The notes under the pieces: model-generated | The model's database searches: none | The model's input: the letters and a program-made list of their open reading frames with translations, nothing else | Told to the model about the DNA's origin: nothing | Assembly: GCF_004965515.1 (NCBI RefSeq) | Contig: NZ_SSHH01000003.1 | Span: forward strand, 499,001-563,000 | From: Alteraurantiacibacter aquimixticola | Lineage (GTDB): Bacteria; Pseudomonadota; Alphaproteobacteria; Sphingomonadales; Sphingomonadaceae | DNA: 64,000 nucleotides | Direction: 5' to 3' | In this document: positions 29,784 to 60,006 of the stretch, piece by piece | Numbering within the stretch: position 1 is the stretch's first letter | Layout of the letters: each line of letters starts with the position of its first letter | Made by a program: the position numbers and the translations under genes

Positions 29784-29803
29784 GCGCGAAGCCTTGCGCA
29801 CGA

Positions 29804-37624: not shown

Positions 37625-37755
37625 TGTTAACCCCCAAAACTTTGGCCCCGTCGAAAGGGCATGATTGTGTATTTCTGGAACGGCGGTCCGGCGCCCGGCG
37701 CAGCCGGAGGGCCGCGAAGCCGGTGCGATAGTCCGCTGCGGACTGGCTATCGTGC

Positions 37756-38910: not shown

Positions 38911-39108
38911 GTTTGCCCCTCCTTGCGAAGGCGTCACATCCGCCTTCCCTTGTCGAGGGACTGATTCTCACGTCACCGTGTGAGCTATCGTTGGAACCAC
39001 CGTTGAAATTGTCGCGATTTACCGTTGGAATTGCGTGCTTTCAGAATTTGCGGAGAAATTTCCGGACGCTCCGGGCAGTTTTCTCTCGGCGTTTTCCGAT
39101 ATTCGGCG

Positions 39109-42873: not shown

Positions 42874-43191
42874 TCAGTCCATCACGGCAATACGTAGCTT
42901 GAGGCCGTCCATCTCGCCGGTGAGGGGCACTTGGCATGACAGGCGCGAACTTTCCTCGCGGTGGTCCGATCCGTCGAGCAGGTCGTCCTCGTCATCGGAC
43001 ATGGCGGGCAGCCCGGCAAGGAACTTGGGTTCGATCACGACGTGGCAGGTCGCACAGGAACAGCAGCCTCCACACAGCGCCTGCAATTCGGGAAAGCCGT
43101 TGGCGCGGATCGCTTCCATCAGGGATCCGGTGGGCTCGACCTCGATGCTGCGCGCTTCGCCTTGCTGGTTTTCGATATGCAATGTGATCAT
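42874..43191 (-). CDS. 2Fe-2S ferredoxin, adrenodoxin type
   Basis: The 105-residue product has the adrenodoxin-type cluster motif C-x5-C-x2-C (Cys40, Cys46, Cys49 in CGGCCSCATCHVVIE) and a fourth Cys86 in RLSCQVPL; an extra Cys43/44 sits in the loop. It carries one electron to an oxygenase. It is the third gene downstream of a sterol-desaturase-type hydroxylase gene (gaps 71 and 92 nt), which needs an electron donor, so it is a good candidate redox partner. Confidence 0.92.
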   Translation of the reverse strand: MITLHIENQQGEARSIEVEPTGSLMEAIRANGFPELQALCGGCCSCATCHVVIEPKFLAGLPAMSDDEDDLLDGSDHREESSRLSCQVPLTGEMDGLKLRIAVMD

Positions 43192-45267: not shown

Positions 45268-45303
45268 AGGCTATCGATATTAAGAAATGCGTCAAGAGTA
45301 ATA
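45268..45303 (-). promoter_or_regulatory. Dyad operator over promoter of hydroxylase A
   Basis: Read leftwards: TATTAC (45303-45298), TC, a -35-like TTGACG (45295-45290), 16 nt, and a -10-like TAGCCT (45273-45268). The right dyad arm, TATTAA on the plus strand (45278-45283), falls inside the spacer. Arms and 14-nt spacing match sites at 52714, 55535 and 58931. The core is nearly identical to the site before hydroxylase B. Confidence 0.75.
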
Positions 45304-45338
45304 ACGCAACAAATTTGACATTTCTGCCAACCGGTCGC

Positions 45339-47105
45339 TCAGCCACGCGCAATATAGGCGCGCCAGCCGCCCAGTGCGGTGATATCTTCCGCGCCTTCCG
45401 TCGCGCGCGGTTCGGAGACGAAGCCCTTGACGCTGCTGCCGTCCTCCAGCGTCACCGTACCAATGGCGAGCGGGGCGGGCACTTCGGCCACGAAGCTGCC
45501 GAACGCGGCGACGTCCAGCTCATAGACTTCGACCGCGATCGCCGCGCCATCCTCGCTGTGCACCAGCGCCGGCTTGGGCGGCGTGCTGTCGGCCATTGCG
45601 TAGAGGCGATAGGTCGGGGCGGTCTGGAAAGCGCCGACGAACTTCGCATCGCGCGAGGTCAGCTGCCAGTGGAGCGGCATGTCCTTGAGATGGGCGCCGA
45701 CAACGGCAAGTTTTACGGTTTCCATTCTTCCCTCCAGGTCGAGCGGGGGCGGCGGAGCAAGCTCCGCTGCTGTGAGAAAGGTTTCGGCTGCAGCCATCAG
45801 GCCATTGTCGCTGCCGGCAGGCCCGATCAGTGTGATGCCGAAGCCGGTGCCGTTGCTGCGAACACCTGCCGGGACCGCGATGGCCGCCATGTCGAGCAGG
45901 TTCACGAAATTGGTATAGAGGCCAAGATTGCTGTTCAGCGCTACCGGCGCAGCAAGCAGCTCAGCTACGCGATAGGTCGTCCCGGTGGTCGGGAAGGCCA
46001 GCATGTCGACCGATTGCCACATGGCTTCCGCCTGCCGCTGCAATTCGGCGAGGCGGTAGATGCCGTTGAACAGCTCCACTGCTGAAATCTCGGCGCCGGG
46101 GGCGACTACCGTTCGGACGGTGTCGTCAATCGCGCCGGGGTTGTTCGCCAGCAGTTCGGCCAGTGCTGCGGTGCGCTCTGCCACCCATGGGCCGCTATAG
46201 AGCAGGCTCGCCGCCTCGTTGAGGAAGGCGATGTCGAGTTCGACCAGCTCGCTTTCCTTGCCCAGTGCTCCGAGCGCGCGATCGTAGAGATATTCGGACT
46301 GATGATCGCCGAACCAGCCGCGCTGGTCGGGGCGCGGGACGCCAATGCGGGCAGGCTTTAGGGGACGTTCTGGAAGCGCCCTTGAATAGGGATCGGCGGA
46401 ATCGAAGCTGGCGATAACCTCGTCCACCAGCTGCGCATCGCCAACACTATCAGCAAAGACGGTGATGCAGTCGAGCGTGCGGCAGGCGGGCACCAGGCCA
46501 TTGGTACTCCACCGCCCCTTGCTCGGCTTCAGTCCGACGAGGTGGTGGAAGGCTGCAGGCACACGGCCCGAACCAGCGGTATCGGTGCCGAGCGCGAAAG
46601 GAACGAGGCCCGCCGCCACCGCCACAGCCGATCCCGAACTGGAACCGCCGCTGACATAGGCGAGATTATAGGCATTGCGCGGGATTCCGTATGGGCTGCG
46701 CGTGCCGACAAGCCCGGTCGCGAACTGGTCGAGATTGGTCTTGCCGACGCAGATCGCCCCCGCCTCCAGCAGCTTGCCCGTCACCGTGGCGGAGACGGCG
46801 GGCGTATAGGAGAATGCCGGACACGCCGCCGTCGTGTTGAAACCGGCAACGTCGATATTGTCCTTCACCGCAAAGGGCACGCCGGCGAGCGGCAGTTTCT
46901 CCCCTGCCGCGATACGCGCATCGACGGTGCGGGCGGCGGCAAGGATGCTTTCGGGAGAAGCGCGGCTGATCCAGATTTGCGGCTGGATCTCGTCATAGGC
47001 GGCAAGGCGCGCGAGAGTGTCTTCCGCAACGGAGACTGCGCTAAAGGTGCCCTCGTTTACCGAGGCAGCAATGGCGGCGGCGCTCTGGCGGTCGAGTACC
47101 GTCAT
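45339..47105 (-). CDS. atzF: Allophanate hydrolase
   Basis: The 588-residue product starts at 47105, overlapping the carboxylase stop by 4 nt (ATGA). The N-terminal 420 residues are an amidase-signature domain: GVPFAVKDNID (catalytic Lys), YVSGGSSSGSAVAVAAGL and GTDTAGSGRVPAAFH (Ser-cisSer). The C-terminal domain (PPPPLDLEGRMETVKLAVVGAHLKDMPLHW...) is the small AtzF/DUR1,2 extension. It splits allophanate into ammonia and CO2, the last step after carboxylation and deimination of guanidine (or of urea). It is the last gene of the leftward operon. Confidence 0.92.
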   Translation of the reverse strand: MTVLDRQSAAAIAASVNEGTFSAVSVAEDTLARLAAYDEIQPQIWISRASPESILAAARTVDARIAAGEKLPLAGVPFAVKDNIDVAGFNTTAACPAFSYTPAVSATVTGKLLEAGAICVGKTNLDQFATGLVGTRSPYGIPRNAYNLAYVSGGSSSGSAVAVAAGLVPFALGTDTAGSGRVPAAFHHLVGLKPSKGRWSTNGLVPACRTLDCITVFADSVGDAQLVDEVIASFDSADPYSRALPERPLKPARIGVPRPDQRGWFGDHQSEYLYDRALGALGKESELVELDIAFLNEAASLLYSGPWVAERTAALAELLANNPGAIDDTVRTVVAPGAEISAVELFNGIYRLAELQRQAEAMWQSVDMLAFPTTGTTYRVAELLAAPVALNSNLGLYTNFVNLLDMAAIAVPAGVRSNGTGFGITLIGPAGSDNGLMAAAETFLTAAELAPPPPLDLEGRMETVKLAVVGAHLKDMPLHWQLTSRDAKFVGAFQTAPTYRLYAMADSTPPKPALVHSEDGAAIAVEVYELDVAAFGSFVAEVPAPLAIGTVTLEDGSSVKGFVSEPRATEGAEDITALGGWRAYIARG

Positions 47106-50100
47106 GATGCGCGCCGCGTCAGGGCCATCAGGGGCGCGCCGGGCTCGATCGCCTGGCGTTCCTGCATATAGAGGGCGGTGATCGTTCCGGCATCGGGGCT
47201 TTCCAACGGACACTCCATCTTCATCGCTTCAATCACGGCGACCACGTCACCTGCCTCGACCTCGTCGCCTTCGGAGACGAGCAGTTTCCAGACATTGCCG
47301 CCGAACGGGGCTTCGACCACCTCGGCACCGTCGGGCACTTCGATGGCAGGCGCGGCCAGCGCTCCCGCTCCGGGGTCTTCGGTCAGTTCGGAAATGCGAT
47401 CGAACTCCCCGCTACGCTCCCATTCGGCGCGTTCGGCATCGAAGGCAGACTGGCGGGTCTGCTGGAATGCCTCGATCGATTGCGCATTCTCGGCGAGGAA
47501 CGCGCGATAGTCGGCAAGACGGAATTCGGAATGCTCGACCTCGATCGAGCGGCGTCCGGCGGGGAAGTCCCTGCGCCATTCCTCCAGCTCTTCGGCGCTC
47601 ACTTCGAAGAAGCGGATCTGGTCGAAGAAGCGGAGCAGCCACGGCTTGCCTTCCTTGAAGGCATCGGTCTGGCGATAGGTGTTCCACACCTGGATCGTGC
47701 GGCCGAACAGCTGGTAGCCGCCCGGTCCCTCCATCCCGTAGATGCACATATAGGCCCCGCCGATGCCCACCACATTGGGCGGAGTCCAGGTGCGCGCAGG
47801 GTTGTATTTGGTGGTCACGAGGCGGTGGCGCGGGTCCACCGGCGTCGCCACGGGCGCGCCCAGATAGACGTCGCCCAAACCCATCACCAGGTAGCTGGCG
47901 TCGAACACCATATCCTGCACCGCATCGGCATCGGGCAATCCGTTGATGCGGCGGATGAACTCGATATTGTCCGGGCACCACGGCGCATCCTTGCGCACGG
48001 CTGCCATGTATTTCTCGATTGTTGCCGTGGTCGCCGGATCGCGCCAGCTCAAGGGCAGGTGGACGATGCGTGAGGGGATGGTGAAGTCCTCAAGGTCGCC
48101 CAGCTCATCCTCAGCCTCGATCAGTGCGGCGAGCGCATGCTGCTGGTCGAGCACGCGATCATCGAAATGGAGCTGCAGCGAGCGGATGCCGGGGACGATA
48201 TCGACGACGCCGGGCAGGGCCTTCGCCTCCAGCACCGTCATCAGCGCATGCACGCGGATGCGCAGTTCGATGTCGAGCACGATGGGACCGTATTCGACGA
48301 GGATGTTGCGGTCGCCCTGCTGCCGGTAAAAGGTGCGTGGCCGATGCCCCTCCTCCGGAATTTCGGCCAGGATCGGGCTCAGTTCGGAGATATCGCGGGT
48401 GACACTCGCGGCGGCAAGGCCGGCCGGTGACGGGGCGAGGGCGGCGGCGCGGCTGGCAGCCTGCGCTTCCTCGATCCCCACAGGCACGAAGCGCAGGCGG
48501 TTGCCGGGGGCGAGCTGGCCGATCTTCCAGCGGTCGGCGGCGATCACCACGAAGGGACAGACGAAACCGCCCAGCGAAGGTCCGTCGGGACCAAGGATGA
48601 TCGGCATGTCGCCGGTGAAATCGACTGCGCCGATGGCATAGGGATTGTCGTGAATGTTGGACGGGTGGAGCCCCGCCTCCCCACCATCCTTGCGCGCCCA
48701 TTCGGGCTTGGGGCCAACAAGGCGAACGCCGGTGCGGTTGCTGTTGTAATGCACCTGCCATTCGGCATCGAGGATGGAGGTGATGTCCCCGTCGGTGAAG
48801 AAATCGGGTGCGCCATGCGGGCCGTACATCACGCGCAGGGTCCAGCGATTGCCGAAATCGGGGGCCTGTCCGGCGGGGACGCTGGCGGTGTCCAGCGCTC
48901 CATCCGCAAGGTGCAGCGTATCGCCCGCAAGCAGCCGGCGTGCGGCATGGCCGCCGAACTGGCCGAGTTCAAAGGTGCTGCGGCTGGCGAGATAGGGCGG
49001 GATGTCGAGCCCGCCGGCGAACAGGATATAGCCGCGCATACCGCCGCCGGCCACGCGGCCGAGCGCCAGCGTCTGCCCAGCAGCGACATCGAAGGGAACG
49101 TCACGATCGACAGGTTCGCCGTCCAATCGCGCACCGAAGTCGGCACCCGCGAGACACAGCCGCGCAGGCGCATTGAAGTGGAGCGTCGGCCCGGTGAAAG
49201 TGACTTCTAGCCCCGCTGTGCCTTCCGGATTGCCTAGCCGCAGATTGCCCGTGCGGAAGGAGCGGTCATCCATCGGGCCCGATGGCGGCACGCCCACTGA
49301 CCACAGCCCCTCACGCCCCGGCCAGTCCTGCACTGTGGTGGCGGTGCCCCCTGAAACTACGCGGACACTGCGCGGCGTGTAATCGACATCGTCGAGCAGC
49401 CGTGTGGTGACCTGCCCGGACAGGAAGCGCTCCTCGCGCAGGACGTCGCGCAGCCAACGCAGGTTCGTTTCCATGCCGTCGATGCGGCTTTCTTCCAGCG
49501 CGGCCTGCATCGCCTTGATTGACGCCTCGCGCGTTTCAGCATGGGTGATCAGCTTGGCGATCATCGGATCGTACCATGCGCTCACCGTGGACCCGGCCTC
49601 GCACCATGTCTCCGAGCGGATATTGTCAGGGAAAGTCAGCGCGGTCAGCGTGCCTGTGGTAGGCCGATAGTCCAGCGCCGGGTCCTCGGCATAAAGGCGT
49701 ACCTGCACCGAATGGCCGCGCGGTTGGGGCGGTGTGCGGTCCATGAAGGCATAATCGCCCGCCGCACCGCGCACCATCCATTCGACCAGGTCGATGCCCA
49801 TCACTTCCTCGGTGACGCCATGTTCGACCTGCAGGCGCGTGTTCATCTCGAGGAAGAAGAATTCCTGCCGCTCGGCATCGAAGAGGAATTCCACCGTCCC
49901 GGCGGAGCGGTAGTGGGCCGCTTCGGCGAGCCGCACGGCAGCGGCGTGAAGGTCGCGGCGAACAGCGGAGAACAGGCAAGGGGCGGGGGCTTCCTCCACC
50001 ACCTTCTGGTTGCGGCGCTGGAGCGAGCAATCGCGCTCTCCCAGCGGCATGACGCGGCCATCGCCATCGCCGAAGATCTGCACTTCGATGTGGCGCGCGC

Positions 50101-50713
50101 GGGCGATATAGCGTTCGAGGAAGACGCCGGCATCGCCGAAACTACTCGCCCCTTGCCGGACCACGCTGGCGAAGCCATCGCGCAAAGCAGACTCATCCTC
50201 GCAGATGCGCATGCCGATGCCACCGCCGCCAGCGGTTGCCTTCAGGATCACCGGATAACCGATTTCATTGGCAGCGCGCGCGGCCTCGTCCTCATCGGTC
50301 AGCAGGCCGGTGCCGGGCGCCAGCGGCACGCCCTGCTCGGCGGCAAGTGCGCGGGCGGAGTGCTTCAGGCCGAAGGTGCGGATATGCTCCGGACGCGGGC
50401 CAATGAAGGTGATCCCCGTCGCTTCGCACGCCTCGGCAAATTCGGCATTCTCGGCAAGGAAGCCATAGCCAGGATGGATATAACCCGCGCCCGTTTCCTT
50501 CGCCGCGGCGATGATGGCGGGAATGTCCAGATAGCTCTCGGCCGCAGGTGCCGGGCCGATACAAACCGCCGCATCCGCCTGCGACACATGGAGCGAATCT
50601 GCATCAGCCTCGGAATAGACAGCGACCGAACGCAGCCCCATGCTGCGCAGTGTCCGGATAATCCTGGTGGCAATCGCCCCGCGGTTGGCGATCAGTACCG
50701 TGCCCTCGCTCAT
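47102..50713 (-). CDS. Urea/guanidine carboxylase, biotin-dependent
   Basis: The 1203-residue protein has the urea-carboxylase layout: a biotin carboxylase domain (residues 1-450) with GGGGIGMRICED and EMNTRLQVEHGVTEEV, a KipA/KipI-type carboxyltransferase region (about 460-1090: TTVQDWPGREGLWSVG, GPGGYQLFGRTIQVW), and a C-terminal biotinyl domain with Lys1165 in EAMKMECP. Bacterial members next to two DUF1989 genes and an allophanate hydrolase have been shown to prefer guanidine, forming carboxyguanidine. Both such neighbours are present here, so guanidine is the likely substrate. The CT residue that separates guanidine from urea use was not checked. Confidence 0.93.
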   Translation of the reverse strand: MSEGTVLIANRGAIATRIIRTLRSMGLRSVAVYSEADADSLHVSQADAAVCIGPAPAAESYLDIPAIIAAAKETGAGYIHPGYGFLAENAEFAEACEATGITFIGPRPEHIRTFGLKHSARALAAEQGVPLAPGTGLLTDEDEAARAANEIGYPVILKATAGGGGIGMRICEDESALRDGFASVVRQGASSFGDAGVFLERYIARARHIEVQIFGDGDGRVMPLGERDCSLQRRNQKVVEEAPAPCLFSAVRRDLHAAAVRLAEAAHYRSAGTVEFLFDAERQEFFFLEMNTRLQVEHGVTEEVMGIDLVEWMVRGAAGDYAFMDRTPPQPRGHSVQVRLYAEDPALDYRPTTGTLTALTFPDNIRSETWCEAGSTVSAWYDPMIAKLITHAETREASIKAMQAALEESRIDGMETNLRWLRDVLREERFLSGQVTTRLLDDVDYTPRSVRVVSGGTATTVQDWPGREGLWSVGVPPSGPMDDRSFRTGNLRLGNPEGTAGLEVTFTGPTLHFNAPARLCLAGADFGARLDGEPVDRDVPFDVAAGQTLALGRVAGGGMRGYILFAGGLDIPPYLASRSTFELGQFGGHAARRLLAGDTLHLADGALDTASVPAGQAPDFGNRWTLRVMYGPHGAPDFFTDGDITSILDAEWQVHYNSNRTGVRLVGPKPEWARKDGGEAGLHPSNIHDNPYAIGAVDFTGDMPIILGPDGPSLGGFVCPFVVIAADRWKIGQLAPGNRLRFVPVGIEEAQAASRAAALAPSPAGLAAASVTRDISELSPILAEIPEEGHRPRTFYRQQGDRNILVEYGPIVLDIELRIRVHALMTVLEAKALPGVVDIVPGIRSLQLHFDDRVLDQQHALAALIEAEDELGDLEDFTIPSRIVHLPLSWRDPATTATIEKYMAAVRKDAPWCPDNIEFIRRINGLPDADAVQDMVFDASYLVMGLGDVYLGAPVATPVDPRHRLVTTKYNPARTWTPPNVVGIGGAYMCIYGMEGPGGYQLFGRTIQVWNTYRQTDAFKEGKPWLLRFFDQIRFFEVSAEELEEWRRDFPAGRRSIEVEHSEFRLADYRAFLAENAQSIEAFQQTRQSAFDAERAEWERSGEFDRISELTEDPGAGALAAPAIEVPDGAEVVEAPFGGNVWKLLVSEGDEVEAGDVVAVIEAMKMECPLESPDAGTITALYMQERQAIEPGAPLMALTRRAS

Positions 50714-51345
50714 GCAGAAACGATCATCCGCACGGGGGTGGGGTTGAAGGCGTTGCAGGGATTGTTGATCTGCGGGCAGTTGGAGACGACCACGATCACG
50801 TCCATCTCGGCCCGCAAATCGACCGTGAGGCCGGGAGCGGAAATGCCGTCAACGATGCCGAGCGATCCGTCCTCCTCGACCGGCACGTTCATGAAGAAGT
50901 TGATGTTGGAGACCATGTCGCGCTTGCCGCGCCCTTCGAGGAGGTTCGCCTCAAGAAAGTTCTCGACACAGGCATGCTGCGCCTTGGTGTGGTGGCCGTA
51001 GCGCAGCGTATTGGATTCGCAGGAACAGGCCCCGCCGATCGTGTCGTGATAGGCGACGGAGGTGCCGGTGATGGTCATCAACGGACGTCCTTCGTTGGAC
51101 CGCAATACGCTGCCTTCGCGCAGGAAGAGGTTGCCCTGAGCCGAAACCGTGTCCTGCGCGCTGTAGCGCTCGGCATCGTCGGCATCGGAATAGAGCAGGA
51201 AGTCGACCGCCTGATTGCCCTCGATATCGATGATGCGCAGCGTCTCGCCGGCGGCGATGTGGTGCAGCCATGGCGCGCGGGCAGGGACGATTTCATCATG
51301 CAAGACGGCACCGGGAAGGCCCCCGAATGCGGGATCAGCGGTCAT
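50710..51345 (-). CDS. DUF1989 carboxyguanidine-deiminase-type subunit (211 aa)
   Basis: The 211-residue product shows DUF1989 landmarks: GETLRIIDIEGNQAVDFLLY, the metal-site region YHDTIGGACSCESNTLRYG, NINFFMNVPVEEDGSLG and the closing NPCNAFNPTPVRMI. It pairs with the next upstream DUF1989 gene. In characterised systems the two subunits form a zinc enzyme that removes ammonia from carboxyguanidine to give allophanate. The start at 51345 is set by the family N-terminus; it overlaps the carboxylase start by 4 nt (ATGA). The pair was earlier called urea-carboxylase-associated proteins 1 and 2. Confidence 0.9.
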   Translation of the reverse strand: MTADPAFGGLPGAVLHDEIVPARAPWLHHIAAGETLRIIDIEGNQAVDFLLYSDADDAERYSAQDTVSAQGNLFLREGSVLRSNEGRPLMTITGTSVAYHDTIGGACSCESNTLRYGHHTKAQHACVENFLEANLLEGRGKRDMVSNINFFMNVPVEEDGSLGIVDGISAPGLTVDLRAEMDVIVVVSNCPQINNPCNAFNPTPVRMIVSA

Positions 51346-51365
51346 ATTTCGTGCAGCCTTCCTTG

Positions 51366-52190
51366 CTAGCGGCGGAAATAGTCTTCGACATTCTCGAAGG
51401 CGCGCAGGCCCTCCGGTGTCGCGGTCCTGATCGGGTCGTTCTCGCCCGTTACCGGGCCACGCCAGGCGGAGATGCGCAGCGGCGACACCGTCCATTCGTC
51501 GCGCGGGTCGAGGACGTGTGGGCAGTTGGCGAGGACCACGATCACGTCCATCTCGGCGCGCAGCACCAGCTTGCGACCACCTTCGAAGGGGCCGACCAGC
51601 GGCGTGATCGTCCCGTCCGCCTCGATCTTCGTGCCCTTGAACAGGTTGATGCAGGGATGGACATCGCGCCGGTGGAGCCCGTGCTTGGCGGAACCGAGCA
51701 GCAGGCGGTCGCGGCCATTGGGGAAGGCGCCGCTATTGCGCCCCTCGCCATATTTCGCCTCGTTCGTGGCGGCGTTGGAGGTGCCGCAAAAGGCATCGTG
51801 TGTCGTCGCATCGTCTTCGAGGATGCTCATCATCACGCGGCCCATATCGGACAGCAGCAGCTTTCCGGCATTGAGATAGGCGTTCCACTGCACCTTCACC
51901 GTGTCTGCAACGTTGAGCCGCTCGCTCGGCATTTCTGCATTGTAGATGAGGAGCGATGCGCACGCGTCGCCCTCAATATCAATCAGGCGCAGGCGCGATC
52001 CGCGCGCCAGCTTGCGGGTGGCATAGCCGCCGGGCGCAACTGTTTCCTCCCACAGCAAATCCCCTGCCGCCACGCCTTCGGGAAGGTCGGGCGCCACCGG
52101 CGGCAGCACCGGCATGGCTTCGACCACGGTTCCGGCCATCGCACGTGCGTGGTCGCGGGCAGCAAGGGGATTTGCCAGTTCCTGGGTCAT
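51366..52190 (-). CDS. DUF1989 carboxyguanidine-deiminase-type subunit (274 aa)
   Basis: The longer of the two DUF1989 proteins. Landmarks: GSRLRLIDIEGDACASLLIYN, THDAFCGTSNAATNEAKYG, HPCINLFKGTKIEADGTIT and LRAEMDVIVVLANCPHVLDP. It has an N-terminal extension (about 45 residues) lacking in its partner. Expected role: partner subunit of the carboxyguanidine deiminase. The ATG overlaps the end of the regulator gene by 4 nt, so regulator, both subunits, carboxylase and allophanate hydrolase read as one overlapping unit. Confidence 0.9.
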   Translation of the reverse strand: MTQELANPLAARDHARAMAGTVVEAMPVLPPVAPDLPEGVAAGDLLWEETVAPGGYATRKLARGSRLRLIDIEGDACASLLIYNAEMPSERLNVADTVKVQWNAYLNAGKLLLSDMGRVMMSILEDDATTHDAFCGTSNAATNEAKYGEGRNSGAFPNGRDRLLLGSAKHGLHRRDVHPCINLFKGTKIEADGTITPLVGPFEGGRKLVLRAEMDVIVVLANCPHVLDPRDEWTVSPLRISAWRGPVTGENDPIRTATPEGLRAFENVEDYFRR

Positions 52191-52696
52191 GCAGCGGCAG
52201 GCTTCTCGGACTTGGCCTTTTTCGAGGCGGGATGGTCGTCGGCCTCGCTCTCACCCTGCTCATGCAGCGGCGGCAGGAGGGCGGTGGTGGTCACCAGCTG
52301 GAGCTGGTGGACGCCGCGGATGGAACGCAGCGCATCGCACAGCGCTTCCAGCCGCACGGCCGGCCCCTGCACCAGCAGCACTTCGAGCGACTGGTCGTCC
52401 TCCAGGAAGACATGCTGCGAGGAGATCACCTCTTTCAGGTAATCGGATTGCGTCTGCGCAAGCTGTTGCCGCACGCTGCCGCGATCGCCGCGATAGACCA
52501 GCGTGATGGTGCCCGCGAGCATCTCCTCGGGACGCGTCAGCGCCTCATGCTCGGCCAGGGCATGGCGGATCAGTTCCGCGATCAGCTGCGAGCGGGACGG
52601 CAGGCCGCGTTCTTCCACCATCACGTCGAGCTGGCGGAACAGGTCTGCCGGAAGGCTCATACTGAGGCGGGCCAGGCTGGTAGGTTCGGATGCCAT
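52187..52696 (-). CDS. NikR-like ribbon-helix-helix regulator
   Basis: The 169-residue product has an N-terminal CopG/RHH DNA-binding motif (SLARLSMSLPADLFRQLDVMV, then SRSQLIAELIRHAL). A C-terminal ACT-like NikR domain follows (GTITLVYRGDRG...SSQHVFLEDDQSLEVLLVQG). Compared with E. coli NikR, only one of the nickel histidines is kept (SQHV); the second His is Phe, the Cys is Ser and His76 is lost. So it is unlikely to sense nickel this way. The tail is a 20-residue charged extension. Location in the guanidine operon suggests a guanidine-, urea- or nitrogen-linked signal. A dyad lies directly upstream. Confidence 0.88.
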   Translation of the reverse strand: MASEPTSLARLSMSLPADLFRQLDVMVEERGLPSRSQLIAELIRHALAEHEALTRPEEMLAGTITLVYRGDRGSVRQQLAQTQSDYLKEVISSQHVFLEDDQSLEVLLVQGPAVRLEALCDALRSIRGVHQLQLVTTTALLPPLHEQGESEADDHPASKKAKSEKPAAA

Positions 52697-52708
52697 AGGG
52701 AGTTCCTC

Positions 52709-53527
52709 TCAATTATTATCTATTATGTCAATCGTAATACTAAGACTTTCTTCGCGGTCGGCTTCCTCATGGGGTGCAGGCGCGGTATCGGCGGCGGGCG
52801 CACCCTTCCGGGTGAGCGGAAGGTCGTAGACGACGGTCGCACCATAGCGTTGCGGGGCGTGCGGGTCATGCCGCCACTTATCGAGCGTGAGCACCCGGTT
52901 GCCGAGGGCGAAAGCCTCCCCGATATCGTGAGTGACCATCATCACGGTCAGCGAATAGTCGCTCCACAGCCGGGTGATCAGCTTGTGCATGTCGTTGCGG
53001 ATACCGGGGTCGAGCGCGCCGAAGGGTTCGTCCAGCAGCAGGATGCGGGGCCGCTTGATCAGCGCCTGCGCGATGGCGAGGCGTTGCTGCATGCCGCCGG
53101 ACATCTGCGCCGGATAGAGGTGCAGGCTGTCACCCAGGCCGACTGCCTGCAGCATCTCCTCCGCTTCCGCGATGGCGGCGCGACGGCTTGCGCCGAACAG
53201 CCTGCCGATGAAGCGCGATCGCTCGCATTCGAGGCCGAACACCGTGTTGTCGAGCACGGTCAGGTGCGGGAATACCGAATAGCGCTGGAACACCACGCCG
53301 CGATTGCTGTCGCATTCGGGTTTGAGGGGAACACCGTCGAGCGTGATGCTCCCGCGCGTGGGGGCATCCTGACCGAGCACCAGCCGCAACAGGCTGCTCT
53401 TGCCCGCACCCGACGGCCCGATCACCGAAACGAAGGCGCCTTCCGCAATATCGAGGTTGATGCGTTCGAGAACGACCTTGTCGCCATATTCGACCCAGAC
53501 GTCGCGAAGGCTGAGGAAGGCGCTCAT
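52709..53527 (-). CDS. ABC transporter ATPase (guanidine operon)
   Basis: The 272-residue ATPase has Walker A GPSGAGKSS, signature MSGGMQQRLAIAQAL and Walker B ILLLDEPFGALD, as in nitrate/taurine-type importers. Its stop is 12 nt before the regulator start; the last dozen codons contain a copy of the dyad. It overlaps the permease end by 4 nt. It powers uptake with the permease and the lipoprotein-type binding protein. In related clusters this transporter is next to carboxylase genes and is assumed to import guanidine or a derivative; specificity was not shown here. Confidence 0.9.
   Translation of the reverse strand: MSAFLSLRDVWVEYGDKVVLERINLDIAEGAFVSVIGPSGAGKSSLLRLVLGQDAPTRGSITLDGVPLKPECDSNRGVVFQRYSVFPHLTVLDNTVFGLECERSRFIGRLFGASRRAAIAEAEEMLQAVGLGDSLHLYPAQMSGGMQQRLAIAQALIKRPRILLLDEPFGALDPGIRNDMHKLITRLWSDYSLTVMMVTHDIGEAFALGNRVLTLDKWRHDPHAPQRYGATVVYDLPLTRKGAPAADTAPAPHEEADREESLSITIDIIDNN
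52714..52739. promoter_or_regulatory. Dyad operator between ATPase and regulator genes
   Basis: TATTAT (52714-52719), 14 nt, GTAATA (52734-52739). It lies in the last codons of the ATPase gene, 18-43 nt upstream of the regulator ATG. On the leftward strand it also shows TATTAC-GA-TTGACA, but no -10 is seen at the N16 position. This would fit autoregulation. Confidence 0.6.
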
Positions 53528-54339
53528 CGCTCAGCCCCGTGCGCCCAGCTGGACATGCGACGGCTGCACCAGACCAGCAGCAAGTCTGCGACGGCGGCGA
53601 GGATGGCGATCCATGCGACATAGGGCAGGATCACATCCATCGCGAGGTAACGGCGGACGAGGAAGATGCGATAGCCGAGCCCGATATCGGCGGCGATCGC
53701 CTCAGCCGAGATCAGGAACACCCATGCCGGGCCGAGCGACAGGCGCACGGCCTGGATCAGGCGCGGCATGGCTTGGGGCAGGACCACGCGCAGCATCAGC
53801 TGCCATGTGCTGGCGCCGAGCGTCTGCGCCTTGATGATCTGTTCGCGCGGCAGTTCGCCCACATGCCCGGCAACGTCGCGGATCATGAAGGGCGCGATGC
53901 CGACCACGATCAGCGCCACCTTGGCGGTTTCGCCAAGCCCGAAGGCGATGAAGAGGATGGGCAGCAGGGCAATGGGCGGGATCACCGCAACGCCCGTTAC
54001 CAGCATGCCGAATGTCGCGCGGACCGGGGGCAGAAGGCCGAGCACAAGGCCGACCAGAAGTGCGCTAGCGGTGGAGATAGCTATGCCCAGGCCAAGCCGC
54101 TGCAGGCTGGCCAGCGTGTCCGCCCAGAAGAGGTAGCGGCCCGACAGCTGGTCCCGCTCGAACACCAGCCCCCGCATCGCATCGATCATGGCGCCGGGAA
54201 GCGGCAGGATCTTGTCCGCGGGATTGATGGCGTTCCGCTCGGCCGCGAGGATCAGGTAGAGAACGAGAAGCAGCAGGATCGGGACGATGCCCATAAGAAG
54301 GGCATTGGTCCGCCCGATCCTGCGATTGACCCAACGCAT
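53524..54339 (-). CDS. ABC transporter permease (guanidine operon)
   Basis: The 271-residue product has six to seven membrane helices and the BPD_transp_1 pattern near the cytoplasmic loop (LPREQIIKAQTLGASTWQLMLRVVLPQAMPRLI). That EAA-type loop contacts the ATPase. It overlaps the ATPase start by 4 nt (ATGA) and follows the binding-protein gene by 46 nt. It is the membrane part of the transporter. The family is the nitrate/sulfonate/taurine type. No unusual residues are evident. Confidence 0.9.
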   Translation of the reverse strand: MRWVNRRIGRTNALLMGIVPILLLLVLYLILAAERNAINPADKILPLPGAMIDAMRGLVFERDQLSGRYLFWADTLASLQRLGLGIAISTASALLVGLVLGLLPPVRATFGMLVTGVAVIPPIALLPILFIAFGLGETAKVALIVVGIAPFMIRDVAGHVGELPREQIIKAQTLGASTWQLMLRVVLPQAMPRLIQAVRLSLGPAWVFLISAEAIAADIGLGYRIFLVRRYLAMDVILPYVAWIAILAAVADLLLVWCSRRMSSWAHGAER

Positions 54340-54385
54340 CAGTTTGCAAACCCTGTCTTGGCTTCAGTCCTTTGCTTCACCACGC

Positions 54386-55471
54386 TCACAGCGCGTCGTC
54401 GGCGGCCATCTGCATGAAGCTTTCATCGAAGCGCAGCGTGATGCGATCCGCGTCCCCCAGCGTTCGCCCGCCGGGGAAGGCCATGCCGATGGCATCGGCG
54501 GAGCTGGCGCCCTGGCCGAACAGCCCCTGCGCGAAGCTGAAGTCACGCACGCGCGTCATGGTCTCGACTAGCGAGGCGTCGGTCGCGGCGGCGACCGCCT
54601 GCTCCGGCTCGACATAGAGATAGGTGGTGGCGAGCTGCGCCTCGAACATTTCGGGCGTGGTGCCGGCCAGCTGCGCCATCGCCGCGCGGGCAGCAGCGCC
54701 CTCTTCGTCCTGCCGCTGCATCAGCTGGATGGTCTCGTACCAAATGCCCACCAGCGCCTTTCCGAGGTTCGGATTGGCTTCGAGCGTGGCGGTGTCGACT
54801 ACCAGTAGGTCGAGGATCTCGCCGGGAATGTCGGCGGAGCTGAACACCTGGCTTGCGCCTGCTTCCTGCTTCATCGTCAGCAGTTGGGGGTTCCATGCGA
54901 CGGCGGCGGTGACATCGGGCGAAGTGAAGGCGGCGGCAATATCGGCATCGGCCGTGTTGATGGTGCGCACATCCGTCATCGCAAGGCCTGCCGATTCCAG
55001 CGCACGCGCGAGCAGGTAATGCGATACGGACAGCTCGACGAGATTGACCTGCTGTCCGGAGATATCGGCAAGATTGCTGGTGCCCTTCAGCAGTACGCCG
55101 TCATTGCCGTTCGAATAGTCGCCGATGATGAGGGCGGTGGTGTCCTTGCCCCCGGCAGCGGGAATGGTGAGCGCATCCATGTTGGCGACGGTCACGCCGT
55201 CAAGCTGGCCGGCGGTGAACTGGTTGACCGATTCGACATAGTCGTTGACCTGCACGATATCGATCTCGATCCCGTAGCGATCGGCCCACTTCTTCACGAT
55301 GCCCGCCTGTTCGGCATAGGGCCACGGCATCCAGCCGGCATAGATCGACCAGCCGATGGTGAATTCCGTCTTGGGTGCTGCGGCTTCTTCAGGCGCCTGC
55401 GAGCATGACGCTACGAGCAGCGCGCAAGCCATCATAGCCACTGCGCCTGCCTTGCGGATCCCGTTCAACAT
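54386..55471 (-). CDS. ABC transporter substrate-binding lipoprotein
   Basis: The start at 55471 follows AGGAG. The 361-residue product has a lipoprotein signal ending LLVASC and then an NMT1/THI5-like periplasmic-binding fold: GWSIYAGWMPWPYAEQAGIVKKWADRYGIEI, GQLDGVTVANMDALTIPAAGGKD, and TSPDVTAAVAWNPQLLTM. It binds the solute and delivers it to the permease. Being lipidated, it stays on the inner membrane. The ligand is unknown; guanidine or a small guanidino compound is the obvious candidate from the operon. It is the first gene of the operon, about 60 nt past a dyad site. Confidence 0.9.
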   Translation of the reverse strand: MLNGIRKAGAVAMMACALLVASCSQAPEEAAAPKTEFTIGWSIYAGWMPWPYAEQAGIVKKWADRYGIEIDIVQVNDYVESVNQFTAGQLDGVTVANMDALTIPAAGGKDTTALIIGDYSNGNDGVLLKGTSNLADISGQQVNLVELSVSHYLLARALESAGLAMTDVRTINTADADIAAAFTSPDVTAAVAWNPQLLTMKQEAGASQVFSSADIPGEILDLLVVDTATLEANPNLGKALVGIWYETIQLMQRQDEEGAAARAAMAQLAGTTPEMFEAQLATTYLYVEPEQAVAAATDASLVETMTRVRDFSFAQGLFGQGASSADAIGMAFPGGRTLGDADRITLRFDESFMQMAADDAL

Positions 55472-55534
55472 ATATGGCAACTCCTTTCGCACTTGCAGCA
55501 TTGCGGCAAAAGGGACCGCTGTCCATCACTTATT

Positions 55535-55570
55535 TATTACCGTTGCCATTTTTTGTAATATCCATATGGT
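55535..55570 (+). promoter_or_regulatory. Dyad operator and promoter between divergent operons
   Basis: TATTAC (55535-55540), 14 nt, GTAATA (55555-55560): perfect arms. Read rightwards it contains TTGCCA (55543-55548), 16 nt, TATGGT (55565-55570), the same geometry as the other promoters of the set. It lies between the divergent transporter operon and the MBL operon, so it could control both. Confidence 0.75.
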
Positions 55571-55684
55571 GCGGCCCCGGAGCAGAGGGCGCTACAGCCG
55601 TCCGAGCCCGGAAGGTCGCCTGGGAGGGGATGCTTGGAAGGCAACCATTCGCCGCCGAACCGGCGGTCCTGCCCGGAGCATCAG

Positions 55685-56776
55685 ATGCCGCAGACTTCCC
55701 CGTCACGACCAGTCCCGACACCTACGCCCACATCCACGATCAACCCGACCTTTTCGGGCAATGGCAATCTTGCCAGCGGGTATAATCCTCCGGGCGTCAA
55801 GAACACCGATTCCGCCGTCCCACTGCATCCGTCCGCGCCGGTCGTGCACGATTATTCCTGCGACGGGCCAGCGGCGGGAAGGCTGGGCTTTCGCTGGACC
55901 TATGGCTCCAATGTCGCGGCCAGGAACCGCGATCCGCGCGTGCAGGTGGTGCAGTATAACGAGGACACTTTCGTCCTGCGCCAGAATGTCTGCGTGCATT
56001 GGGAAGCGCCGTTCACCTATTTGCTGTTCGGCAATGACGGCGCGCTGCTGATCGACAGTGGAGCGACGGCGAATGCCAGCTACTATCCGCTGCGTGACAC
56101 CGTTGACGCCATCATTACCCGCTGGGGCCAGATGCGGCGAAGGGACAAGGTGCCGCTCACCGTTGCGATGACATCAGGCGAGGACATCGCGCAGAGCCAG
56201 GGCATCGTGCAATTTGCGGGTCGGCCCGACACTACCATCGTGCCGACGCCTCTCGAGGTGATGAAGCGCCACTATGGTCTCTCGGTCACTTGGCCCTTGG
56301 GAACCTCCCGGATCGATCTGGGTGATCGTGTGATAGAAGTCATCCCCACGCCGGGCGCACATCGCGACGGGGTGAGCTTCTACGATCCCTATTGCGATTT
56401 CCTCTTCACCGGGGACCTGCTGTTTCCCGGCCGGATCAATATCAGCAATGATCGCGACTATGTCGCCTCGCTGGAACGTCTCAAGGCCTTCGCCGCGCGT
56501 GAGCCGGTGAAATGGGTGCTGGGCGGGCATATCGACATGATGTTCGTGCCGGGAAAGCACTACCCCCGCTTCGCCACCTACAAGCCCTATGAGCGGATCC
56601 TGCAGATGGAGCCCGAGCTGATCGACGAGGCGCTGCAATATGCGCACGAGGTCGCAGGCAAGGACATGATGCTGATCCGCCCGGACTTCGTCCTGTTCAA
56701 CGGGGTCAGTCCCGACCAGCGGACACGGGTGTGGCCGGAAGGCGTGCCCAACATCGATGCGCCGCACCCGTTTTGA
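55685..56776 (+). CDS. MBL-fold protein lacking HxHxDH
   Basis: The 363-residue product shares the fold and order of the next gene's product, for example YNEDTFVLRQNVCVHWEAPFTYLLFGNDGALLIDSG, PGAHRDGVSFYDPYCDFLFTGD and WVLGGHIDM. But where the paralogue has SHLHADH, this protein has MTSGEDIAQ (residues 162-170). Most zinc ligands are lost, so it may be catalytically altered or a structural partner. A His after PGA and Asp in FTGD remain. It has a Pro/Thr-rich N-terminus and no signal. Start at 55685 after GGAG. Confidence 0.85.
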   Translation: MPQTSPSRPVPTPTPTSTINPTFSGNGNLASGYNPPGVKNTDSAVPLHPSAPVVHDYSCDGPAAGRLGFRWTYGSNVAARNRDPRVQVVQYNEDTFVLRQNVCVHWEAPFTYLLFGNDGALLIDSGATANASYYPLRDTVDAIITRWGQMRRRDKVPLTVAMTSGEDIAQSQGIVQFAGRPDTTIVPTPLEVMKRHYGLSVTWPLGTSRIDLGDRVIEVIPTPGAHRDGVSFYDPYCDFLFTGDLLFPGRINISNDRDYVASLERLKAFAAREPVKWVLGGHIDMMFVPGKHYPRFATYKPYERILQMEPELIDEALQYAHEVAGKDMMLIRPDFVLFNGVSPDQRTRVWPEGVPNIDAPHPF

Positions 56777-56793
56777 TGGTCGGGAGAACGAAC

Positions 56794-57801
56794 ATGGATC
56801 GTCGCACATTCCTTTCATACAATGCCGCCGCTCTTACCGTTCCGGCAGTGCTGACCACCTACAGCAACGCTGCGCTCGCCGCCGCGCCGCGCCCGGAACC
56901 CATCGATTTCAAGAGCAATCTGCCCGCTGCCGGGAGCTTTCCCGATCGCTGGATCTGCGGTTCTGAATCGCTGATGGATAACACCGACCCGCCGGTACAC
57001 GTCCACTGGTACAACGCGCACACCGCCATCCTGAGGCAGAACAAGGCCTATAGCTACGAGGCGCCCTTCGCGCCGCTCTATTTCGGCAATGACCGCGTGC
57101 TGCTGCTGGATGAAGGCTTCACCCAGCTGCGCAATGACTGGGACCTGCGCGGCGTGGTGGACGAGTGCATCGCCGACTGGTGCGCGCGCAACGGGCGCGA
57201 TCCCGCCAGCCTGGAGCTGCTGGTCGCGTTCAGCCATTTGCACGCGGACCATTATGCCGCGGTCAACCAGTTCGCCGACCGGCCGAACACGCGCTATATG
57301 GGCCTCACCCATGAGGAGATGGTCGGCTTCTGGGGCATGACCAACTACCCGGAAGAGCAGGTGACGCTGGACCTTGGCGGGCGCGACATATTGATCTGGG
57401 GCTCACCCGGACACGTCGTCTCCGAATTCGCCTATTACGACAGCTACACGCAAATCCTCTACACCGGCGACATGTTCTATCGCGGCCGGTGCTACATCAC
57501 CTTCTGGGAGCCGTGGTTCGACAGCATGACGCGGCTGATGGAATTTGTGGACACCCACCCGGTGACCCATGTGATGGGCTGCCACGTCGAGATCAGCAAG
57601 GATGGCGAGGACTATCCCTACGGCCTGACCTGGCAGCCCGATGAGGCACCGGTCGAGATGACGGTCGCGCAGCTGCGCGAAGCCTATGAGCACGCCAAGA
57701 CGATCACCGAGCCGGGCATATATTTCACCGGCACGGTGTTCCTGTGCAACCAGACGCGCAGCTTCACCACGATCGACAGCAACCCCTATCGCTACAGCTG
57801 A
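56794..57801 (+). CDS. Tat-exported metallo-beta-lactamase-fold hydrolase
   Basis: The 335-residue product has a twin-arginine signal (DRRTFLSYNAAALTVPAVLT...ALAA) and the zinc motif SHLHADH (His148, His150, Asp152, His153). Later ligands are in PGHVVSEFAYYDSYTQILYTGD and MGCHVEISKDG. It should hydrolyse an ester, amide or lactone-like bond in the periplasm, exported folded with its metal. Start at 56794, after GGGAG. It follows its degenerate paralogue by 17 nt and precedes the lipoprotein gene by 39 nt, so all three form a rightward operon under a dyad promoter. Substrate unknown. Confidence 0.92.
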   Translation: MDRRTFLSYNAAALTVPAVLTTYSNAALAAAPRPEPIDFKSNLPAAGSFPDRWICGSESLMDNTDPPVHVHWYNAHTAILRQNKAYSYEAPFAPLYFGNDRVLLLDEGFTQLRNDWDLRGVVDECIADWCARNGRDPASLELLVAFSHLHADHYAAVNQFADRPNTRYMGLTHEEMVGFWGMTNYPEEQVTLDLGGRDILIWGSPGHVVSEFAYYDSYTQILYTGDMFYRGRCYITFWEPWFDSMTRLMEFVDTHPVTHVMGCHVEISKDGEDYPYGLTWQPDEAPVEMTVAQLREAYEHAKTITEPGIYFTGTVFLCNQTRSFTTIDSNPYRYS

Positions 57802-57840
57802 CCGCATCAGCGCGTCCCCCAGTTCCAAGGAGCCAGACCC

Positions 57841-58764
57841 ATGAACCGTTCGATCCTGCTGCTGCCCTTCCTCGCCGCTGCCTGCGCTCCCTCAGCGGAG
57901 GAGCCCGTCAGCACCGAATTCGCCGAGAATATTATCGAAGTGCCCGGCTTTGCCGATTTCCTCCAGGTCGATGGCGACACGGTGTGGACCACCAATGACG
58001 GGCGGGTGGAGCAGTGGTCGACCACCGAATTGCTCGCCTCGGTCGAAATCCCGCGTCCCTGCGGCACGATGGCGATGGCAGCCGGGTCGCTGTGGGTGGG
58101 CAATTGCGAGGGCGGCGAGCTTTACCGCATCGATCCGGAGACGGCAGAGGTGCTCGCAATGATCCCGGCCGGTATCGGCCCCAGCGGCGAGCAGAATGTG
58201 GTTGCCGGGGCCGGGGCGGTCTGGGCGCCGAACCAGGCCGACGGCACGATTTCTCGCATCGATCCGGAGAGCGACAGCATCGTCGCCTCGATCGAAGTGG
58301 CCACCGGCACGACTTTCCTCGCCTTCGGCTTCGACGCGCTATGGGCGGTGAGCAGCGAAGGCGGGACGCTGCAGCGGATCGATCCGGAGACCAATGCCGT
58401 AACCGACACGATCGTGCTGGGCGACACGCCGGGCTTCCTCGTCGCAGGCGAGGGTGCGGTCTGGGTGCAGGAACAGGGTGACGGTACGGTCGCCCGTATC
58501 GATCCGGCAACGCGCGAAGTGGCCGGCCGCACAGCGGTGGGCGAGAACCTCAAATGGGGCGATATCGACACCGGAGACGGAAAGGTGTGGCTGCGCACGA
58601 CCGACGACCAGACCTTCGTCGTGATCGATGCTCAGACTGCCGAAATCCTCGCGCGCGTCGGGCGTCCGGAGGGAAGCGGCGCGCTGCGCTACACGCCCGA
58701 GGGCATCTGGACGAGCGCGCATGACGTGCACACGCTCACCTGGTGGTCCGAAGGGAGCGAGTAG
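57841..58764 (+). CDS. YncE-like beta-propeller lipoprotein
   Basis: The 307-residue product has a lipobox signal (LLLPFLAAACAPS) and repeated blades with the pattern ...W(V/A)xxxxGGxLxRIDPETxxVxxxI, e.g. GELYRIDPETAEVLAMIPAG and GTISRIDPESDSIVASIEVATG. Each blade of about 40 residues recurs at least six times, as in YncE-like or virginiamycin-B-lyase-like propellers. It is probably a lipid-anchored periplasmic or surface protein that binds a ligand. It is the last gene of the MBL operon. Its function in that operon is unknown. Confidence 0.85.
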   Translation: MNRSILLLPFLAAACAPSAEEPVSTEFAENIIEVPGFADFLQVDGDTVWTTNDGRVEQWSTTELLASVEIPRPCGTMAMAAGSLWVGNCEGGELYRIDPETAEVLAMIPAGIGPSGEQNVVAGAGAVWAPNQADGTISRIDPESDSIVASIEVATGTTFLAFGFDALWAVSSEGGTLQRIDPETNAVTDTIVLGDTPGFLVAGEGAVWVQEQGDGTVARIDPATREVAGRTAVGENLKWGDIDTGDGKVWLRTTDDQTFVVIDAQTAEILARVGRPEGSGALRYTPEGIWTSAHDVHTLTWWSEGSE

Positions 58765-58930
58765 CGGGCAGAACCGATTCGTGCCGGAGGCTCGACACCT
58801 GTTGCATCTTGATTACACGAACGCGTCGCGCGGTCGTCAGGCGAGGGCGGAGAGGAGCCGCCCGCATGCCGAAAAGCGGCAGGATTCCGCAGTTGCGAAG
58901 GGATTTGCCGAGACCGCCGACAGGCCTAAT

Positions 58931-58966
58931 TAATACTCTTGACGCATTCCGTAATATCGGTAGCGT
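58931..58966 (+). promoter_or_regulatory. Dyad operator over promoter of hydroxylase B
   Basis: TAATAC (58931-58936, one mismatch), 14 nt, GTAATA (58951-58956). The -35-like TTGACG (58939-58944), 16 nt and TAGCGT (58961-58966) follow the same layout as the other sites. It lies 87-122 nt before the hydroxylase ATG. The rest of the 288-nt gap holds no gene I see. Confidence 0.75.
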
Positions 58967-59052
58967 GTGTCATGCCGTCGTAAAGAACGGTCTAACTCGG
59001 GACGAGGATCTGCAGAATTGAGCCGCCACCCGGCTCGATATGGAGATTGTCT

Positions 59053-60006
59053 ATGGATCGAGCATCAGGTAGCCAGACACCCCCAGCGGATGCGCGCGCT
59101 CCTGTCGATGGTCCGGCTGCCAGCGGCGGCTCTCTCAAGCGATCTCTCGTCAACTTCATTCCCGTCGCCACCTTAGTCGCAGTCGTCCTTGGCTGGATGC
59201 TGGCGCCGCGTTCGATCACCGAAAGCCCCTGGTCCATCCTCATCGCAGGGGTCGTCACCAGCTTCTTCCTGCTCGGCCTCGAACAGCTGTTTGAACGGCA
59301 CGAAGGCTGGCGCCTCAACAAGATCGAGTTCGCCACCGACCTCTTCTACATGGTGCTGATGTACACCGTGATCGGCTGGGCGGTGGAAGTCCTCGCCGAC
59401 GGGCCGCTCGCCTCGCTCAAGGAGATGCTTGGCATCACCACGCCCTGGGTCACCGCCTTGCCCTTCGTGTTGCAGGTGGCGCTCGTCATCTTCCTGATCG
59501 AATTCGGCCAGTACTGGATGCATCGCGCGATGCATAACTGGTACCCGCTGTGGCTGACCCACGCGCCGCACCACCACATCACCCAGCTCAACGCGCTGAA
59601 GGGTTTCGTCGGCAATCCGATCGAGCTGTTCCTGATCAGCCTCAGCGTAGTGGCGCTGTTCGATTTCGACATCGTCGCGCTGTTCTGCGCACTCAACGTC
59701 CTCGGCGTGATATCGGGTTACGCCCATGCGAATATCCGCTCGGACCCGCCGCTGGTCTATTCCTTTGTCTTCACCACGATCCGCCACCACAGCCTGCACC
59801 ACACGGCGCTGAGCTATGAAGATACGCGGTGCAATTATGCCAATTCGCTGATCCTGATCGACCGCATCTTCGGCACCTATCGCGAAGGGGAATCCGCGAT
59901 CGTGGGCCAGGATGAACGCAAGCGGCTGTCGATCTACGAACAGTTCATGTTTCCGTTTCAACCACTGATAGACAAGTACAAGAGCAGGCGGAGTACGTCG
60001 GCGTAA
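59053..60006 (+). CDS. Sterol-desaturase-type di-iron membrane hydroxylase (B)
   Basis: The 317-residue product has the same histidine boxes as hydroxylase A: QYWMHRAMHNWYPLWLTHAPHHHITQLN and RHHSLHHTALSYEDTRCNY, with several membrane helices before them. The ATG at 59053 follows GGAG. It should oxidise a substrate with two irons and O2. A and B are similar along their whole length by eye, so they are paralogues held about 14 kb apart, both behind the same operator type. Substrate unknown; roles in lipid hydroxylation are possible instead of guanidine chemistry. Confidence 0.9.
   Translation: MDRASGSQTPPADARAPVDGPAASGGSLKRSLVNFIPVATLVAVVLGWMLAPRSITESPWSILIAGVVTSFFLLGLEQLFERHEGWRLNKIEFATDLFYMVLMYTVIGWAVEVLADGPLASLKEMLGITTPWVTALPFVLQVALVIFLIEFGQYWMHRAMHNWYPLWLTHAPHHHITQLNALKGFVGNPIELFLISLSVVALFDFDIVALFCALNVLGVISGYAHANIRSDPPLVYSFVFTTIRHHSLHHTALSYEDTRCNYANSLILIDRIFGTYREGESAIVGQDERKRLSIYEQFMFPFQPLIDKYKSRRSTSA

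Follow-up and report, generated by a model that had tools for sequence, protein, structure and literature searches.

The window analyzed here, 64,000 nucleotides of Alteraurantiacibacter aquimixticola (contig NZ_SSHH01000003.1, positions 499,001 to 563,000), carries a gene cluster of the guanidine carboxylase type together with a NikR-like regulator gene and four copies of the dyad TATTAC-N14-GTAATA. The reading that we favor, and to which we would give a probability of roughly 0.7, is that the NikR-like protein is a ribbon-helix-helix (RHH) repressor that acts on these four operators, is released from them by guanidine or a derivative of it, and thereby controls guanidine uptake and degradation. 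The evidence for this regulon model is comparative throughout: comparison of related loci shows the operators, their targets, the pairing of regulator and operator, the guanidine type of the carboxylase and the missing nickel ligands, and no guanidine riboswitch was found here, whereas repression, the identity of the ligand and the way in which the genes respond to it are what we infer. The predicted regulon comprises the guanidine carboxylase pathway, a transporter, two membrane hydroxylases (HydA and HydB), a ferredoxin, two proteins of the metallo-beta-lactamase (MBL) fold (MBL1 and MBL2) and a TonB receptor.

Four near-perfect dyads in the window

An earlier note on this DNA had described four sites, none with more than a single mismatch in either arm, and, at three of them, the layout TATTAC-N2-(-35)-N16-(-10). 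Both observations were borne out: the dyad is found with one mismatch at 45278, 52714 and 58931 and with none at 55535, and the layout is present at 45278, 58931 and 55535. The sites and the promoter elements that accompany them are listed below (SBP, substrate-binding protein of the transporter).

45278-45303, minus strand: operator 1, TATTAC-N14-TTAATA on the minus strand, covering the -35 of the HydA promoter
45290-45295 (-35, TTGACG) and 45268-45273 (-10, TAGCCT), minus strand: HydA promoter
52714-52739, minus strand: operator 2, situated in the 3' end of the ATPase gene (52709-53527)
52726-52731, minus strand: -35-like TTGACA of operator 2, at the same offset as at the other sites, with no clear -10
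55535-55560, no strand assigned: operator 3, separating the divergently transcribed genes for SBP (minus) and MBL1 (plus)
55543-55548 (TTGCCA) and 55565-55570 (TATGGT), plus strand: MBL1 promoter
58931-58956, plus strand: operator 4, covering the -35 of the HydB promoter
58939-58944 (-35, TTGACG) and 58961-58966 (-10, TAGCGT), plus strand: HydB promoter

The centre of operator 2 lies 30 bp ahead of the start of the NikR-like gene. Read in gene direction, the sites at 45278 and 58931 agree at 32 of 45 bases and have the 15-mer AATGCGTCAAGAGTA in common; the core that the note had described as shared with one change is indeed shared, and the two copies are exactly identical. Beyond the operator, the SBP leader (about 55490-55535, minus strand) and those of relatives contain the conserved ATGGACAA and GG..ATGCTGCA.TGCGAAAGG.

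With up to two mismatches allowed, the window holds four dyads, compared with a mean of 0.04 over 100 shuffled versions, none of which reached four. With up to three, there are five dyads and no excess over chance (8 of 100 shuffles), and the signal is therefore carried by the near-perfect sites. A scan of the whole 3.43 Mb genome for the dyad at one mismatch or fewer gives these four copies and no others, and all of them fall within 13.7 kb. Dyads with two mismatches occur at eight further places, and at this level (up to two mismatches) a reversed control pattern is commoner than the dyad itself, at 36 places as against 12, so that two-mismatch sites alone mean nothing.

Conservation of the operators at the same genes

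We compared 80 named loci (the top 80 among 269 confirmed matches, 1.58 Mb in total), in which the regulator is present by selection and which come largely from Novosphingobium, Sphingobium, Erythrobacter and their relatives. At a spacing of N14 we counted 149 exact dyads, and at the 13 other spacings from 8 to 21 none; with at most one mismatch, there are 244 sites at N14 and no more than 8 at any other spacing. Four scrambled or reversed pairs of arms gave no exact match and at most three near matches in the same loci. Shuffles, other spacings and scrambled arms together rule out a chance origin of the dyads.

Of the 244 sites, 242 precede a regulon gene by about 400 bp or less; the other two are unassigned. 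A site is found upstream of the SBP gene in 80 of 80 matches, of HydB in 47 of 49, of MBL1 in 41 of 43 and of the regulator in 77 of 101, and less often upstream of the TonB receptor (25 of 73) and the propeller protein that follows MBL2 (8 of 57). No site was found upstream of the permease (0/80), the ATPase (0/80), the carboxyguanidine deiminase-type subunits UAAP1 (0/80) and UAAP2 (0/79), the carboxylase (0/79), allophanate hydrolase (0/75), MBL2 (0/46), the protein of unknown family, DUFx (0/30) or the ferredoxin (0/9). The dyad is thus conserved upstream of orthologues, as the note had proposed to check, less so for HydA and the TonB receptor. Genome G972, from the same genus as the window, has the same set of four sites.

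The position of the -35 is conserved as well: at operator offset 8, TTGAC is present in 46 of 50 HydB sites, 12 of 16 HydA sites, 23 of 25 TonB sites and 58 of 79 regulator sites, and TTG in 41 of 41 MBL1 sites (a site between divergent genes may be counted for both).

Regulator and dyads occur together

The window's genome has a single NikR_C match, and the regulator is present in 21 of 246 genomes of the order. All but one of these (20 of 21) also contain the exact dyad, compared with 16 of the 225 genomes that lack the regulator (Fisher p 1.2e-18); in the exception, G054, TGTTAC-N14-GTAACA is found at each of the two regulator genes. In G145, two regulator copies lie within 4 kb (7850-8299 and 11257-11745 of locus L034), with more dyads around the second.

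Outside the window's family, we collected 38 loci: 36 that were fetched (for 37 of the 42 matches with E < 1e-50; five were unfetched) plus the two of G054. Across these, residue 12 of the DNA-reading strand of the regulator goes with the half-site: Ser12 with TATTAC in 32 of 32 at no more than one mismatch (25 exact), Thr12 with TATGAC in 4 of 4, and Gly12 with TGTTAC in 2 of 2, both in one genome. The Thr12 and Ser12 types are both found within family f188. There were no cross-matches between half-sites save TGTTAC at one mismatch in two f70 loci. Locus L229, counted as Ser12, also encodes a second, Gly12 regulator, but a TGTTAC site to go with it was not found there. On a contig labelled Candidatus Poribacteria (L125), the regulator is 85% identical to the sphingomonad one, and that bin is probably contaminated.

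One genome of the order has the pathway without the regulator. UAAP2 at E 1e-50 is found in 22 of the 246 genomes, namely the 21 with the regulator and G238, which also keeps matches to UAAP1, the carboxylase, allophanate hydrolase, SBP, permease, ATPase, HydA, DUFx, MBL1, MBL2 and the TonB receptor. In the 34.5 kb of G238 that were fetched, there is no regulator match and no dyad with up to one mismatch per arm; at one place, inside the MBL2 gene, a dyad has two mismatches in one arm. A LysR-type gene lies beside SBP in this genome (locus L249, 5163-6101), possibly reflecting a change of regulator.

The note had linked the sites to the NikR-like regulator by location and dyad form. Co-occurrence, covariation with residue 12 and the joint absence from G238 agree with that assignment, and support the four dyads as putative binding sites of the NikR-type regulator encoded at 52187-52696.

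A NikR-family protein lacking three nickel ligands

The regulator matches PF01402 (RHH) and PF08753 (NikR_C) above cut-off, and its operators have the spacing of NikR operators, with inverted hexamers at N14. It falls below the NCBIfam cut-off for the NikR equivalog (99.9 bits as against 105) and below those of the other four models listed; a distant relative that lacks two nickel ligands, L142, passes three models that name nickel-responsive NikR.

We take the nickel ligands of Pyrococcus horikoshii NikR to be H78, H89, H91 and C97. Aligned to it, the window's regulator has S84, H95, F97 and S103 at these four positions. Among the 101 regulator hits in the 80 loci, position 84 is never His, 95 is always His, 103 is always Ser, and 97 is Phe in 86 and Val in 15. 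Relatives in f70 have the set variable-H-F-S (with N-F-A as exceptions in L228 and L234), those in f240, f77 and f188 have variable-H-H-T (with exceptions at 97, Pro in L211 and Asn in L213), and four canonical NikRs of f77 keep H-H-H-C. Judged by domains and operator, then, the protein belongs to the NikR family, and judged by its ligands it is not a NikR of the nickel type; because three of the four ligands are absent, it is probably no nickel sensor.

A tree separates the regulator group from canonical NikRs with 99/98 support (25 rows), a figure for which the program warns of long branches. Alignment A1 was drawn from 24 matches, without L015, L016 (which has an internal stop) and L028 (28% identical), and the window's protein stood for L005. 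None of the fetched stretches around 14 canonical-type NikR loci has UAAP or carboxylase matches. The operator GTATGA-N16-TCATAC is exact at two of these loci (L164 and L239) and has one mismatch at L163 and two at L157; the other ten lack it at up to two mismatches, an absence that would be compatible with targets in other places but that lends no support either.

The guanidine link

The genes of the locus are listed below.

52187-52696, minus strand: NikR-like regulator (RHH_1 and NikR_C), with S84, H95, F97 and S103 at the nickel-ligand positions
51366-52190, minus strand: UAAP1, carboxyguanidine deiminase subunit type (TIGR03425)
50710-51495, minus strand: UAAP2, carboxyguanidine deiminase subunit type (TIGR03424); true start probably downstream of the one listed
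47102-50713, minus strand: guanidine carboxylase (annotated as urea carboxylase), with D698 and D948 at Kluyveromyces lactis positions 1330 and 1584
45339-47213, minus strand: allophanate hydrolase (TIGR02713); true start probably downstream of the one listed
52709-53527, minus strand: ABC transporter ATPase
53524-54339, minus strand: ABC transporter permease
54386-55501, minus strand: ABC transporter SBP, urea/guanidine-carboxylase-associated type (TIGR03427); true start probably the second ATG
44084-45085, minus strand: HydA, membrane-type FA_hydroxylase protein
43284-44012, minus strand: DUFx, protein of unknown family with no Pfam match, following HydA in relatives too
42874-43191, minus strand: 2Fe-2S ferredoxin, possible redox partner of HydA
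55634-56776, plus strand: MBL1, match to the MBL superfamily without the HxHxDH motif
56731-57801, plus strand: MBL2, MBL superfamily, with HLHADH and a Tat-like leader (judged by eye)
57841-58764, plus strand: beta-propeller-type protein with a lipoprotein-like leader (judged by eye)
59047-60006, plus strand: HydB, paralogue of HydA (40% identical)
60192-62630, plus strand: TonB-dependent receptor following HydB, with a site of its own in some relatives

UAAP1 and UAAP2, allophanate hydrolase and the ABC importer make up, with the carboxylase, the set of the guanidine carboxylase pathway. According to an excerpt of PMC11410670, Asp at K. lactis positions 1330 and 1584 identifies guanidine carboxylases, and position 1330 separates them from urea carboxylases. 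In the window's enzyme, D698 corresponds to position 1330, and D948, in the stretch GLGDVYLG, is aligned to 1584. Asp at position 1330 is found in all 78 readable carboxylases of the 80 loci and in all 27 readable ones of the other-family loci.

The regulator was found in six families (f1, f8, f70, f77, f188 and f240, the window's own included), and 31 of the 38 other-family loci have it beside UAAP or carboxylase genes. Twelve other-family loci (L153, L154, L205-L211, L219, L222 and L223) have creatininase and type III glutamine synthetase (GlnT) beside the regulator, mostly together with carboxylase genes.

No guanidine riboswitch was found in the window by Rfam at the gathering score, nor at 41000-63000 up to E 5, where three Rfam matches are at chance level; we rejected riboswitch control of the window's operon on these grounds. 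In the stretches of G238 and G972, too, no guanidine riboswitch was found. Four of 14 relatives scanned (L154, L205, L213 and L215) do have a Guanidine-II riboswitch; all four are among the ten that were scanned from other families, and there the two kinds of control coexist.

The proposed mechanism and its alternatives

In the mechanism that we propose as the most economical one, the regulator, which shares ancestry with the nickel sensor NikR, would act as an RHH repressor on the four TATTAC-N14-GTAATA operators. The putative -35 (TTGAC, or TTGCC in the MBL1 direction) lies between the half-sites of each operator, so that repressor sitting there would keep RNA polymerase off the HydA, HydB and MBL1 promoters. 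The SBP transporter operon would also be under its control and, by way of operator 2, so would the genes for the regulator, UAAP1, UAAP2, guanidine carboxylase and allophanate hydrolase, autoregulation included; operator 2 might serve as a roadblock or as the operator of an internal promoter. The C-terminal domain of NikR is described as ACT-like. In the window's protein the NikR_C domain would now bind guanidine or a close derivative, and this would free the DNA and turn on guanidine uptake and degradation: a metal sensor appears to have switched ligand while keeping its DNA code.

Several observations weigh against this model. At the level of the operators, a site stands directly upstream of HydA in just 16 of 40 cases; none of 100 SBP-direction sites has TTGAC at offset 8, and the SBP promoter could not be placed; operator 2 lacks a -10 and overlaps coding sequence; and the covariation of residue 12 with the half-site rests on few independent switches. 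As to the ligand, most of the f240, f77 and f188 relatives keep both H95 and H97, and metal binding is possible there. The second NikR-type protein of G178 (L028 / L050) lacks ligands as well, but it falls among the canonical NikRs and its 20 kb contain no guanidine genes, so that the subfamily is not defined by ligand loss alone. Seven of the 38 other-family loci have creatininase and/or GlnT beside the regulator and no carboxylase; the ligand may therefore not be guanidine itself. Finally, the riboswitch hits in L205 and L213 are just above threshold.

Of the alternatives, the one that we rate highest keeps the repressor and changes the inducer to another nitrogen compound or pathway product, such as an alkylguanidine, carboxyguanidine, allophanate or a creatinine-like molecule. 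The seven loci without carboxylase speak for it, as does the sphingomonad regulon, whose additional genes (two hydroxylases and a TonB receptor) look suited to a larger substrate; the carboxylase pathway is nonetheless the commonest neighbor (31 of 38), and four relatives also carry the Guanidine-II riboswitch, and we regard such an inducer as possible but more doubtful than likely. An activator, or a constitutive repressor without ligand, seems unlikely to us: in most HydA, HydB, MBL1 and TonB promoters the -35 lies under the operator, which suits repression, and permanent repression of conserved catabolic genes would be hard to expect.

The remaining two alternatives question the sensor or the identity of the DNA-binding protein. 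In a nickel-economy switch, the protein would still sense nickel and, at ample nickel supply, would close the carboxylase route, which needs no nickel, in favor of the nickel enzymes guanidinase and urease; the NikR_C domain speaks for it, and it has a parallel in Desulfovibrio, where NikR regulation of a nickel-independent hydrogenase was predicted (as excerpted from PMC545781). Three of the four ligands are gone, however, with 84 never His, 97 Phe or Val and 103 Ser in the 101 hits; four canonical NikRs of f77 keep H/H/H/C in a family that also holds relatives of the regulator; and the fetched stretches of the canonical-type loci have UAAP or carboxylase genes in 0 of 14 cases, all of which makes a nickel switch quite improbable. 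That another regulator binds the dyads and the NikR-like gene is a bystander is very improbable indeed, given that the half-site tracks residue 12 of the NikR-like protein even within family f188, that regulator and dyads are jointly absent from G238, and that the operator geometry is of the NikR type.

Comparison with known systems

The regulator resembles the nik operon repressor NikR of Escherichia coli, P. horikoshii and Helicobacter pylori in its RHH plus NikR_C architecture, in having two half-sites at NikR spacing and in its reading strand, R-x-[STG]-x-[ST]; it differs in its three lost ligands, in scoring below the NCBIfam cut-offs and in its regulon of guanidine catabolism. Excerpts of two papers give the NikR operators as GTATGA-N16-TCATAC in enterobacteria (PMC7055735) and GTGTTAC-N13/14-GTAACAC in delta-proteobacteria (PMC545781), which have the same geometry as ours, and relatives of the regulator carry the known variants GTATGAC-N14-GTCATAC and GTGTTAC-N14-GTAACAC. 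What differs here is the half-site, TATTAC, and the presence of four sites in one locus, at catabolic promoters.

As far as they are described in excerpts of PMC12508155 and PMC12186494, the riboswitch-controlled guanidine carboxylase operons of Vreelandella, Raoultella and Klebsiella have the ABC importer, carboxylase, deiminase subunits and allophanate hydrolase in common with the window. In place of a guanidine riboswitch, none of which was found in the window, we find a protein regulator; in place of the extra oxygenase genes mgdH/mgdL of the Vreelandella operon (PMC12508155, in part), there are FA_hydroxylase-type enzymes, MBL proteins and a TonB receptor.

The earlier note had called the operator-promoter set undescribed. 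This holds for the regulon as far as we searched, and not for the operator form, whose geometry is that of known NikR operators; what is new is a regulator that has lost nickel ligands, the regulon that it is predicted to control and its occurrence in six families. We found no report linking NikR with guanidine catabolism among the part of the matches viewed in the open literature (subscription papers and preprints being outside the scope of the search). In the supplement of a 2009 paper (PMC2667541) there is a NikR tree on which, according to the legend, organisms without nickel use are marked.

The regulator is thus a candidate guanidine-responsive regulatory protein, with predicted operators in the 80 named and 38 other-family loci. 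The regulon suggests candidate guanidine-linked roles for the two hydroxylases, the two MBL-fold proteins and the TonB receptor, and the extra sphingomonad genes suggest a wider substrate. Vreelandella has a methylguanidine dioxygenase/lyase pair (PMC12508155, in part), and by analogy we conjecture that the membrane hydroxylases oxidize alkylguanidines and release guanidine. A broader proposal, which we hold tentatively and at somewhat short of even odds, is that the six families share a NikR subfamily in which the nickel site has become a guanidinium pocket, the first known guanidine-sensing protein transcription factor, in place of guanidine riboswitches, and that the sphingomonad hydroxylases, ferredoxin, MBL proteins and TonB receptor form a route of alkylguanidine import and N-dealkylation that yields guanidine. 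Conserved residues of the regulator, among them Y68, E89, H95, E99 and D101, would be candidates for lining such a pocket.

Other features of the locus

HydA and HydB match PF04116, and the motifs HRxMH, HxxHH and HHSxHH are invariant in 8 of 8 aligned sequences, which places them in the membrane fatty-acid hydroxylase superfamily. For MBL1 and MBL2, a search by sequence gave no relatives of solved structure at E 0.001. In the MBL1 orthologues that we inspected, a TSGEDIAQ-like stretch stands in place of HxHxDH; since MBL1 lacks this motif, it is probably not an ordinary metallo-hydrolase. Elsewhere in the window, an open frame of 2709 codons (29804-37933, minus strand) adjoins further long frames (24309-38937).

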